Of a stretch of 64,000 nucleotides of DNA, positions 810 through 5,511 are shown piece by piece. The position numbers were made by a program, and so were the translations under genes. The notes beneath the pieces were generated by a model. The model worked only from the letters and a program-made list of their open reading frames with translations, ran no database searches and had not been told where the DNA came from. Numbering within the stretch: position 1 is the stretch's first letter; each line of letters begins with the position of its first letter. This DNA is from Marasmius tenuissimus (lineage: Eukaryota; Basidiomycota; Agaricomycetes; Agaricales; Marasmiaceae). The stretch covers positions 62,001 through 126,000 of the forward strand of contig JAQOTA010000036.1 of assembly GCA_029532415.1 (NCBI GenBank). The letters are read 5' to 3'.

Positions 810-817
810 ATGAAGAG

Positions 818-962
818 ATGGTGTCGCTCGCTGACCAACAATCGGCTCAATATCCTCAAGAGGCTTTTGGAGACAAGGACCAATGCAGAGATGGTGTCAC
901 CCACTGACCAGCAGTTAGCTCAACATCTTGAAGAAATTTTTGGAGACAAGGAGAAATTGCGA
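818..962 (+). repeat. 73-bp diverged tandem duplication at the 5' end of the kinase gene
   Basis: The stretch starting ATGGTGTC at 818 is repeated starting at 891, with a shared core (GACCA.CA..GCTCAA...CTT/CCT.AAGA, then TTTTGGAGACAAGGA). The period is 73 nt, not a multiple of three. Copy 1 reads MVSLADQQSAQ and copy 2 reads [11 protein letters not shown], in different frames. Only copy 2 is in frame with the kinase exons, so copy 1 is probably leader sequence or an out-of-frame relic. Confidence 0.7.
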
Positions 963-3808
963 GTATTTCTGGAAAAGACGGGCGAGGATGCGCAGAAATG
1001 GTTGGATAAACTACAGCAGGTGAGCTTCGACTAACTTTTTGTGTGGCCCGTTCATTGCTCACTTATCTGCGTTATAGCTCATCGACAACTCCAATTTGAA
1101 TGTCACTAGTCAGTTGCGCTCTTCAATATTCACGGTGATGATCCGTCTTTCGAAACTGTCCGGGCTGCACCCGAAAGGTTTGTTATTGCAAGATGTTCGC
1201 AAGCTGGGCAGGCATCCTATCGCCGCTGGCGGGTTCGGAGATGTATGGAAGGGCATAATTGGACAGTCAGATTCAGAGGGACAGCTAGTGTGTTTAAAGG
1301 TGTCGAAGGTGTATGTGAAGAGCGACCTAGACGTCTTATTTAAGGTATGTCACTCCTTTGGCTTATTGTCGTTTCTCTCCATGAATCCGAAGAGCAGGAA
1401 TATCTGCGTGAAGCGATCATGTGGCGCCAGCTGAACCATCGGAATGTCCTACCATTCCTGGGGATTTTCTACTTGAAAGATGATAGCCAGTTCTGTCTTA
1501 TCTCCCCGTGGATGGAGAATGGTAATCTCTTGCAATACCTCAAGGCCACCCGAAGAGCAGATGTTGATCATATCGTACTGGTACGTCAATTGACCGATTT
1601 AATATTCGATACTTAGTTGCTCAACCAAACAGGCCTGTGATGTTGCAGCGGGTCTTGCGTATCTACACGGGGAGAAGGTGGTCCATGGGGATCTGAAAGG
1701 GGTGAGCAAGCATTCTTATTGATCATTGTAAAAACCGCCCATACCGTCTGTGCAGCTGAACGTCCTCATAACCCCGGAGGGCCGTGCTTGCATTGGCGAC
1801 TTTGGGCTATCTCGTATTGCGGACACTCTTGCCCTCAAATTGACCACGTCGACCACTCGTGCTGCCGGCACAGCCCGATGGCTTGCACGGGAGGTTTTGA
1901 ACGGTAGTTCAGGCCCTACCAAAGAAAGCGATGTGTACGCTTTCGCCTGCGTTTGTTACGAGGTATTCGAGCTCTTCTTCATCGTACACTCGTCACTTCC
2001 TGATGACTATACGGCAGATTTTTACCACCCTCCCGCCTTTCCACGAGTTCGGTAACGACGCGGCTGTGATCCTCCATGTCATGAGCGAGAAATGTCCTAC
2101 GAGACCTACGGGAACCCCTGAGCTCGACGACGGGATGTGGAACATCATGGAAGCGTGTTGGAACGCGAATTCAGCTTCTCGGCCCAGGGCGACCGAAGTC
2201 CTTGATCGTATCAACTCAGAAACTCTGGTAGCGCGAAAAACAACTTGGACCGTTGATCACATCGAGTTGAAGCCTTTGCTGCCGCCACCACGGGCCAGTA
2301 GTCCTCCGGCGCATGGTTCTCACGAACCCACCCAAGTCTCGGATGGCAGTTTGTCAGAACGCTTTGGAACTGAGGGGAAGCACACTAACAGGGATATGGG
2401 TCTCAAGCTGGCGAAGGAGACAAGGAAACATAACGACAAAATAGACGGAGAGCTCGAGGAGGAGGACCGCAAGCTGAAGGAAGAGTTCAAGATCCTCCTA
2501 CTAGGTGAGTAATCTATATGTAGGACCTACCAGACGATCCCCTGAACTACGTCTGTCAGGCTCAGGAGAATCTGGGAAATCAACTATCGTCAAGCAAATG
2601 CGTATCATCCATAATATCGGTTTCTCAGAGCAGGAAAGTGCCCACTATCGTTCTATCGTATGCCGAAACGTCCTCGATTCAGCACGCGCAATCATCCTCA
2701 CCATGAACAAGCTGGAGATTCAATGTATAAGAACTCGGAATCACGCGTTGGTGGACAAAATCATGAATTACAACCACGACGATAAGAGCGGGTTGAGCTC
2801 TGAGATTGCAGACGCGATATACCAGTTCTGGCAGGATCCCGCCACTCCCAAGGTACTGGAGGAACATGGAAGTTCTTTCTACTTGATGGATAGCGCGCCG
2901 TAGTGAGCGGTTGGTTTTGGCAGTTCACATCTACGTATTCACTGATGCTTCTTAGCTTTTTCTCCGAGATTTTGAGGATTGGCTCCCCTGGCTACCTCCC
3001 CTCAGAAACAGACATATTACGGGCGCGTCAGAAGACTACAAATATCTCGGAGACTAGGTTCACTAGTGGGGCTATGTCGTGAGTGCCGACCGTCTCTCCC
3101 GAGTATCAAGATGAGTGACTGACAGACGTATCGCATCGTCGCGGAAAGCATACACATATTCGACGTGGGTGGGCAAAGGTCGGAGCGTCGAAAATGGATA
3201 CATTGCTTCGAGAGCGTTACAAGTATCATATTATGTCATGCGTTGAGCGAGTACGACCAGGTGTTGGAGGAGGAGAAGAGTCAAGTACGTCTCCCCCGGG
3301 CTTGCGATCTTCTGCTGTATATTGATGCCAGACTTATTCAGAATCGAATGCAAGAATCGCTTCATCTTTTCGAGGCCATCATCAATTCTCGATGGTTCAT
3401 GAGGACTTCGATAATCTTATTTTTGAACAAGACAGACGTGTTCAAGAAGAAGATATCAAGGGTATGTAAGGTTTCTCAAGCCTGAAAACCCAAGTTAGGC
3501 CCCAACCTTTATTGACGTCAATCCTGGGCTGTAGGTCCCTCTGAAGCGCTACTTCCCCGAATATACTGGAGGTAACGACATCACTAAGGCCGCAAAGTTC
3601 ATTCTTTGGAAGTTTAATCAGTGCAATCGTGCAAGGCTGAGCATATACCCGCAGTGAGTACTTATTCTTCCCTGGTTTAACGATGAGATCTGACGTACTC
3701 TTCCGGCCCAGTCTCACTCAAGCGACAGACACGACTAACATTCGACTTGTGTTCGCTGCTGTCAAAGAAACCGTTCTACAGAATGCAATGAGGGTGATTA
3801 TGTTGTGA
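891..3808 (+). CDS. Protein kinase fused in frame to a G-protein alpha subunit
   Basis: Model of 12 exons: 891-1019, 1078-1344, 1398-1580, 1633-1701, 1756-1962, 2018-2504, 2560-2902, 2956-3078, 3149-3284, 3342-3461, 3535-3653, 3712-3808 (2280 nt, 759 aa; an upstream in-frame ATG at 810 would add 27 aa). The N-terminal half is a TKL-like kinase: glycine loop [11 protein letters not shown], lysine in VCLKVSK, catalytic HGDLKG, DFGLSR, and an altered APE motif reading ARE. A proline-rich linker of about 60 residues follows, then a Galpha of normal size: P-loop GSGESGKST, switch [10 protein letters not shown] (Gly to Asn against the family), DVGGQ, NKTD and TQATDT. The linker contains a Galpha-like start, MGLKLAKE, at 2396; starting there gives 348 aa, normal for Galpha. 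No stop separates the halves. Family knowledge: Galpha switches on GTP and the kinase phosphorylates Ser/Thr or Tyr. Whether they form one chain is inferred. The alternative is two adjacent genes. Confidence 0.72.
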
Positions 3809-5511
3809 TGTTGAAAACCTACCCTCTTGCGGCACATGATTCTCCTATGTTGCCCCCGATTCCGTCGGCACCAGAAAATGTGTATTTACACGATTCATGT
3901 GCATGCAGTGCCATGGACGCTCGCGATGCTCGTATAGATACATGAGAATCTGACTCCTCTTGAAAGAGGACTCATGAAGTGCGTGAGGTCAATGAGATGT
4001 TCATGAATGTCCCTGATTCCTGAACCGTCACTGTAAGCTCCGTGAGATCCATAGAGGTTCATAAGGCTATCCGGAACTCACTAGATGATCATGAAGAATG
4101 ATAAACTTAGACTCAACAACGAAAGAAAGAGAAAGTATCGGAGTCCTATCCTATACAAAGACTACTCCCGTCGACCGATCATCGACATCGATCAACCCGC
4201 GACCGAGCTTCTGTCAAAGACTCTATAGCTCGACCTGGGCCTGAACCTTGAAGGCTTATGCTGGCATATTACACTCTCGTCCCCCGTAAAGCACCTGGCC
4301 GCACTTGGACAACCTGCCCGAGAAGAGGGATGCGGTGCCTTTTCTTTCCCTCCTTACGTCGATAACAAAGAGCTTGTAGGCTCTTGTAGGTGAGCTTTCC
4401 GACGTCCTTCCTGAGGGGTAGAAAATTCACGCGCCGCCGCGTTGATGCGCCATCATCCACCAGGCCATTTCTAGAAACGTCCATCTAACCCGTCCTCTCA
4501 TGTACCGTCCGAGTCAAACGCTGAGTGGAATATAAGAATAGCCTCCTCGGCAAAACTGGATAGTAAATGTCGTAGACGGATCGTTCGCCTTGCCTGAGTT
4601 GATTCTCGCTATCCAATTCGTAGGGCTGTAACTCAGTCAGAACTAGGTGAGGCCGTACAAAATGGTACAATAGGGTGTATCGGGTACTCTGACGCCACCA
4701 CGGCAAGAATGAACTTGAAGGAGCCCGCTCACCGTCGTCCATACCCGTTGTCTCCAAAACTTTTTCTGTTCCAAGCGGCGTATCCAGGTACGGCGCTCGA
4801 TCTGTTGACCATAAAACGCAAAGTTAGCAGCAGTGACTGTGAATGCATGGGTGATGGTCAATATTGTTCAAGAATGAGCATAGGAGAAGTCCGAAACTGG
4901 CAACCGTTCTCGTTGAGTCACACCGCGGCTTCCTTGCAATTGTATTCTTTCCACGGCCAACTCGTGGATATCGCAGATCCCCACGCGGTGGCGCATTTGA
5001 GGACTGAAAGCCACTGCTGGATCTCGCAGCCTTGAGGTGTGGATAAATTTGCCGTGCTGTAACCGACGTCAACAGTGTGTCGGAAACTGAGAGAAGACTT
5101 TGGGTAGAAACACACACATTGCTACAATAATTTGATGAGGTGCGTAAATTTCGCGGCCGTCGCTCCATGCGGGATCAAATCCAACTTCACTAGAGCTTCG
5201 GAGGAAAAAAAGACTACCTTTAGTGGGGGACAAGGTTGGGCTCAATCAGCCATTCCCACCCCGGGACCGCTCTTGTACAGGCTTGATCTCATCGCTGCGA
5301 ATCAGAAAATAGTACTTTCGTTGTTGACAAAGTTCTAGACTGTAGGTCCTGATGGGTGTGGGGTCGTCACGTTCTAATGTCATTTGAAAGGCCGATCCGC
5401 TCCAAGTAGATGCACCTTTCCTCGTGAAACCAGTTCGAGCTAACCGAGAGAGCACAATGTTACGTTTTGATCGTGGCTACCTGCACACAAGTACCGAACT
5501 GACTGGACACC
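3809..5511. other. Intergenic region, no gene recognised
   Basis: This 1.7 kb lies between the Galpha stop and the SRP68 stop, so it holds two 3' flanks. Open frames on both strands are short and lack motifs or consistent splice sites. Around 3960-4100 there are many short TCATGA/TTCATGAA words in diverged repetition, of unknown meaning. Confidence 0.4.

Follow-up and report, generated by a model that had tools for sequence, protein, structure and literature searches.

The window, a stretch of 64,000 nucleotides from Marasmius tenuissimus (contig JAQOTA010000036.1, positions 62,001 to 126,000), contains a gene for a protein kinase followed in the same reading frame by a heterotrimeric G protein α subunit (Gα; Table 1). 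The gene model rebuilt from the raw sequence comprised 12 exons at 891..3808 of the forward strand with 2280 nt, coding for 759 residues and a stop codon; the original prediction was correct in its coordinates, its 12 exons and its 760 codons. All 11 introns have GT-AG borders and a length of 52-73 bp. The acceptor at 3148 in front of exon 9 is required for the frame, and the identical site is present in a stand-alone Gα copy of the same genome (L030). No stop codon or frameshift was found over the 759 codons of the window copy. The predicted uninterrupted course of exon 6, from the kinase C-lobe via the linker into the P-loop, was borne out. Taken alone, the open 59-codon linker is weak evidence: 760 of 4118 stretches of the same length, sampled on both strands of the window, were open as well. 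What exceeds chance is that another M. tenuissimus contig encodes the same protein (P0001, 785 aa) and that the same junction occurs in P0121, a protein of Marasmius sp. AFHP31.

Table 1 Features of the kinase-Gα gene, in window coordinates
Feature	Position	Strand	Basis
Possible N-terminal extension of 27 residues, in frame	810..890	+	deposited model P0001; continues in P0121
Exons 1-6	891-1019, 1078-1344, 1398-1580, 1633-1701, 1756-1962, 2018-2504	+	gene model
Exons 7-12	2560-2902, 2956-3078, 3149-3284, 3342-3461, 3535-3653, 3712-3808	+	gene model
Exons 1-5: N-terminal region and the bulk of the kinase domain (VCLK, HGDLKGLN, DFG)	891..1962	+	translation, Pfam
Junction exon 6: kinase C-lobe, linker, Gα αN helix, start of P-loop	2018..2504	+	open frame throughout
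Kinase-derived tail, aa 353 to about 397	2219..2354	+	DNA similarity to L031
Former leader of the stand-alone Gα gene, now linker residues about 398-411	2355..2395 (41 bp)	+	DNA similarity
Gα half, ancestral start Met (aa 412) to stop	2396..3808	+	Pfam, G-box motifs, fold
Altered Gα C-terminus MRVIML (LKDSGIL in L030)	3788..3805	+	comparison with L030

The deposited model P0001 starts 81 nt earlier, at an in-frame ATG at 810, and lacks one tyrosine at the exon 7/8 boundary relative to our model. The start of exon 1 is tandemly duplicated within 806-952 (806-879 and 879-952, 81 % identity, out of phase), and the possible N-terminal extension overlaps this duplication. P0001 reads the first copy in frame, and the same stretch is found in the AFHP31 protein. 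Further upstream, about 560 bp 5' of the gene, positions 1-333 hold a repeat, probably a recently moved element, that recurs with 92-98 % identity on contigs C23, C10 and C7 and once with 88 % on C28; it is followed at 333-470 by a short dispersed repeat of ~135 bp with about 33 listed matches on many contigs.

The first half of the protein matched the Pfam profile PK_Tyr_Ser-Thr at residues 90-349 (E 8.3e-44, profile positions 6-257 of 258). The kinase domain is complete: the translation contains the lysine of VCLK, the aspartate of HGD and the DFG motif, which we take, from the common roles of these motifs, to serve ATP binding and catalysis. The HRD arginine and the APE motif are absent, with HGD and ARE in their place. 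HGD is a family trait since seven of the eight proteins compared possess it, the exception being P0121, which lacks that exon; ARE was present in some, not all, of the eight. Neither an RGS-homology domain, the hallmark of GRK, nor a seven-transmembrane domain, the hallmark of GPCR-kinases, was matched by Pfam in the fusion protein up to E 1.

The second half is a G-alpha domain at residues 422-749 (profile positions 2-333 of 333, E 1.1e-123). The window copy keeps all five G boxes, among them G2 as RQKTTNI, G4 as NKTD and G5 as TQAT, and with them the switch arginine and the switch glutamine. The predicted full-length Gα with five G boxes held with respect to the complete domain and the boxes; the C-terminus has been replaced. 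Gα subunits are anchored to the membrane by N-terminal lipid features and contact receptors with their C-terminal end. We compared both ends with 108 stand-alone relatives of 340-360 residues, taken from the first 118 proteins of a longer list. The chain ends with DSGIL in 91 of these relatives and in L030, and with VIML in the fusion. Met-Gly together with a cysteine in the first six residues was present in 101 of the 108; in the fusion the Met-Gly is internal (aa 412) and no cysteine is near, and L030 likewise has no N-terminal cysteine. At 173 near-invariant positions (conserved in at least 95 % of the 108 relatives) the fusion was changed 15 times, including Cys442Phe, and L030 five times. 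In the region covered by P0121, 3 of 40 near-invariant positions differed in that protein, the serine of the P-loop among them. From these sequence features, nucleotide binding by the fused Gα looks possible, and the subunit looks poorly suited for receptor coupling. The 'receptor-proximal' role suggested in the original prediction is weakened by the loss of the N-terminal Met-Gly/Cys and of the DSGIL end.

Both halves have a diverged counterpart on contig C10 of the same genome. The kinase half (window 882-2282) had a DNA identity of 78 % to C10:5156586-5157988 (L031), which codes for the kinase P0122 with its VHS domain at the C-terminus; four further places on C10 followed with 73-76 % and one with 67 %. 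The Gα half (window 2355-3867) had 83 % identity to C10:5098229-5099741 (L030), an intact reading frame that starts with MGLKPSKE and ends with DSGIL. The intron positions of the two halves match those of L031 and L030, respectively. A DNA search of the genome (71 Mb, 70 contigs) found no second full copy of the fusion. L030 is missing among the best 120 of 7971 listed protein matches though 81 % identical to the query, and public gene sets may have left it unannotated or joined it to an adjacent gene. Related genes for TKL-like kinases form a large cluster on C10 at about 5.05-5.64 Mb, on either strand, and related Marasmius proteins carry VHS, SH3, RhoGEF or WD40 accessions. The whole genome contains 55 matches to the Gα profile, grouped into about 23 places, several of them divergent.

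The breakpoint lies within the tail-coding exon of the kinase gene. DNA similarity to L031 is firm up to 2282 and weak until about 2341-2355; similarity to the Gα gene begins at 2355, 41 bp upstream of the Gα ATG at 2396. The last exon of the kinase paralogues L031-L034 is open for about 60 codons or more beyond the join in all four cases read, thus no stop codon had to be lost for the fusion. The sequence 5' of exon 1 had no match to the upstream regions of L031 and L032, which are also unlike each other. On C10 the kinase gene L031 is located 5' of the Gα gene L030 in the direction of transcription, in the same orientation and at a distance of about 57 kb, and genes arranged in this way could have been brought together by a single deletion or an unequal exchange. 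This arrangement of both parents on one contig also fits an artefact, a gene model that merged neighbouring genes or a chimeric contig; this explanation is hardly credible, as the halves differ from their parents by 17-22 % of the DNA, which a misassembly cannot produce, the join is located inside a single open exon, and the same join occurs on another M. tenuissimus contig and in another species. Read-through from adjacent genes was ruled out, both halves being diverged duplicates joined within one exon, and a misassembly was ruled out by the other M. tenuissimus contig, which is not necessarily from an independent isolate, together with the second species.

An independent Gα transcript is unlikely because almost no DNA from upstream of the Gα gene was carried along and the kinase gene lost its own 3' end. 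Two overlapping products would arise if an internal promoter allowed the Gα to be made also, or solely, from its ancestral start codon at 2396. The ancestral Met-Gly has been kept in frame in both species, which would suit such a start, but the retained upstream DNA amounts to 41 bp, 26 ATGs in all frames precede the ancestral ATG in the spliced sequence, and the linker of the AFHP31 protein is in frame and similar; an internal promoter is thus improbable. The claim of a kinase and a complete Gα in one chain stands on the two Pfam domains, the low likelihood of separate transcripts and the junction shared with a second Marasmius species. The reading as one gene is well supported.

The deposited M. 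tenuissimus protein P0001 represents the same chain, is encoded on a contig of 85,643 bases, not necessarily of an independent isolate, and forms a cluster of two members on one contig. P0121 from Marasmius sp. AFHP31 is a partial protein deposited as Rho exchange factor that comprises the kinase and the same linker, followed by the beginning of the Gα; 498 of 605 columns aligned with the window protein were identical, with 43 gaps. In this model exon 4 with the catalytic loop is skipped, intron 2 is retained, the end coincides with the exon 7 boundary, and the P-loop reads GEFGKST. These oddities may be due to poor gene prediction or to real damage. The window fusion and P0121 were sisters in the Gα tree (26 rows) as well as in the kinase tree (20 rows), with a support of 100/99 in both. 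In the Gα tree the pair was followed by L030 (100/98), by P0167 of M. crinis-equi (95/90), then by P0172 of M. oreades and P0192 of M. fiardii. According to this tree order the fusion appears to have arisen after M. crinis-equi had branched off and before AFHP31 did so. Among the matches listed, M. crinis-equi, M. oreades and M. fiardii had stand-alone Gα proteins and kinases with other tails. A kinase and a Gα in one chain occurred once among the best 120 of 1500 matches and twice among the best 120 of 987; a third protein search (best 120 of 7971) took lengths of about 191-609 only, a range too short for a full fusion to appear. More distant kinase-Gα fusions may exist beyond the matches listed. 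The original prediction had proposed looking for the same domain order in other proteomes and had suggested that it could be a new architecture in mushrooms: the order was recovered in Marasmius sp. AFHP31 and in no other species among the matches listed, so that the architecture is confined, within these matches, to M. tenuissimus and Marasmius sp. AFHP31. Among the non-subscription papers listed, titles and abstract openings contained no description of a kinase-Gα chain.

Fusion to a kinase as a general trait of Gα genes was rejected. Nineteen other Gα stretches of the genome, each extending about 3-5 kb to both sides of a Gα place and excluding C36:15465 and C3:2281856, were free of tblastn matches to the kinase half at E <= 1e-3. 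When 18 related kinases served as queries, the same stretches yielded one weak match (L022, one query, E 1.4e-5).

Between the window protein and the AFHP31 protein 75 of 83 positions were identical in residues 1-83, 228 of 246 in the kinase domain, 35 of 41 in the tail (aa 353-393), 14 of 18 in the linker (aa 394-411), 21 of 29 in the αN helix of the Gα and 103 of 120 in the remaining shared Gα part. Yardsticks for the same pair of species were the stand-alone Gα on C68 (342/354) and the parental kinase pair P0122/P0123 (317/350); three further kinase pairings (72-81 %) were left out, their orthology not being apparent from the tree. Pairwise comparison, which does not tell apart the lineage under constraint, gave a dS of 0.798, a dN of 0.110 and a ratio of 0.137 for the kinase half against L031 (373 codons), and a dS of 0.518, a dN of 0.102 and a ratio of 0.197 for the Gα half against L030 (348 codons). 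In neutral simulations none of 500 copies remained free of stops, neither for the kinase half (d 0.40) nor for the Gα half (d 0.26), while the linker by itself was open in 32 % (d 0.26) or 56 % (d 0.1). Judged from these comparisons, the kinase half is under the usual constraint. The Gα half evolves fast, faster than the stand-alone yardstick, and the stem branch of the fusion Gα in the Gα tree was 0.17 compared to 0.064 for L030.

Such rates, the lost Gα C-terminus, the odd AFHP31 model with its changed P-loop and missing catalytic exon, and the occurrence in just two close species among the matches listed would all be expected of a real chimera of minor or absent function, one that arose by recent duplication in a large kinase family in turnover and is drifting into decay with a relaxed Gα. 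Against decay speak the 759 codons of the window copy free of stops and frameshifts, the pairwise dN/dS well below 1 in both halves, and a kinase domain as conserved between the species as the pair P0122/P0123. We regard a decaying chimera as unlikely.

A structure model was calculated with AlphaFold for P0001 with 82 sequences (mean pLDDT 79.5, pTM 0.58); it carries no information on a kinase-Gα contact or on the placement of the domains. In P0001, the pLDDT was <50 for most of the disordered linker stretch 393-441, equivalent to 366-414 in the window protein. The 50 listed matches of the model to solved structures were Gα chains or complexes, with TM-scores of 0.82-0.92 by target length; Gi alpha-1 was matched at 0.92 on the same measure. 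A Gα fold kept while receptor-contact and lipid features are lost would also suit a passive module, which would act solely as a sink for Gβγ or as a tag for docking and localising the kinase, with no control through GTP. There is a precedent for localisation in Phytophthora sojae, where the Gα PsGPA1 acts on the kinase PsYPK1 and holds it outside the nucleus (PMC7010300). Yet the five G boxes, including the switch arginine and glutamine, are retained, needlessly for a pure tag, and a passive Gα appears somewhat unlikely.

The locus harbours a young chimera that is real; it probably encodes a kinase with its own GTP switch or docking module, the VHS partner having been swapped for a Gα uncoupled from receptors. 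Homology identifies the parents and the join; the event itself would have been a recombination in an ancestor shared by M. tenuissimus and Marasmius sp. AFHP31, by which the tail-coding exon of a kinase-VHS gene was joined in frame to the leader of a GPA3-like Gα gene and the VHS tail was lost. As nearly all Gα upstream DNA and the 3' end of the kinase gene are missing, a single transcript and a single chain of about 85 kDa would be expected. The Gα domain is predicted to bind GTP and could engage Gβγ, RGS or effector proteins; this might position or gate the tethered kinase. A receptor would not be involved, given the loss of both lipid anchor and receptor-contact end. More tentatively, a natural single-chain kinase-Gα switch that works without a receptor, originated in a recent VHS-to-Gα swap in Marasmius and is maintained by selection may be considered possible. 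Gα subunits are regarded as stand-alone transducers from receptor to effector. A Gα tied covalently to a kinase would be an effector-tethered switch, with a GTP control testable in one purified chain. The domain pairing is surprising, its origin clear, and the families are known.

With parents, breakpoint and an orthologue identified, the fusion offers a datable case of mushroom kinases that change their C-terminal partners (VHS, RhoGEF, AIG1, Gα). In 46 kinase-bearing rows among the best 120 of 987 matches, VHS accessions occurred 15 times, RhoGEF three times and Gα twice; a few rows had other tails (SH3, WD40 and single cases), and some partners may be wrong gene models. A Pfam rescan of nine proteins placed VHS above the cut-off in P0122, P0123, P0128 and, barely, P0125, RhoGEF in P0132 and P0133, AIG1 in P0165 and Gα in P0121, and detected the kinase only in P0126. 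On these domain assignments the fusion is best read as the gain of a further C-terminal partner within a partner-changing kinase family.

Compared with the closest known proteins, the fusion shares the full PF00503 domain and the five G boxes with stand-alone GPA3-like Gα proteins (L030; P0167 of M. crinis-equi), and with L030 also the intron positions and 81 % protein identity. It differs from them by its position behind a kinase, the absence of an N-terminal lipid site, the VIML end and a faster evolution. With the Marasmius kinase-VHS protein P0122 encoded at L031 it has in common the N-terminal part, the kinase domain, the intron positions and about 80 % protein identity, whereas VHS and the long linker of P0122 are replaced by the Gα. 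Related kinases with a signalling or GTPase domain at the C-terminus likewise occur in M. crinis-equi and M. fiardii (P0132, P0133) and in Rhodocollybia (P0165), but there the partners are RhoGEF and AIG1, respectively, not Gα. GRK2 contacts Gα via its RGS-homology domain, and Pfam finds none in the fusion. The complex of GRK2, Gαq and Gβγ (PDB 2bcj) also places a kinase beside a Gα, in that case as separate chains. PsGPA1 of P. sojae directly binds and controls the serine/threonine kinase PsYPK1 (PMC7010300); there two separate proteins interact, here one chain unites both functions' domains. In the choanoflagellate GPCR-TKL/K proteins a component of the G-protein pathway is fused to a kinase (PMC12716839): the fused component is the 7TM receptor there and the Gα in Marasmius.
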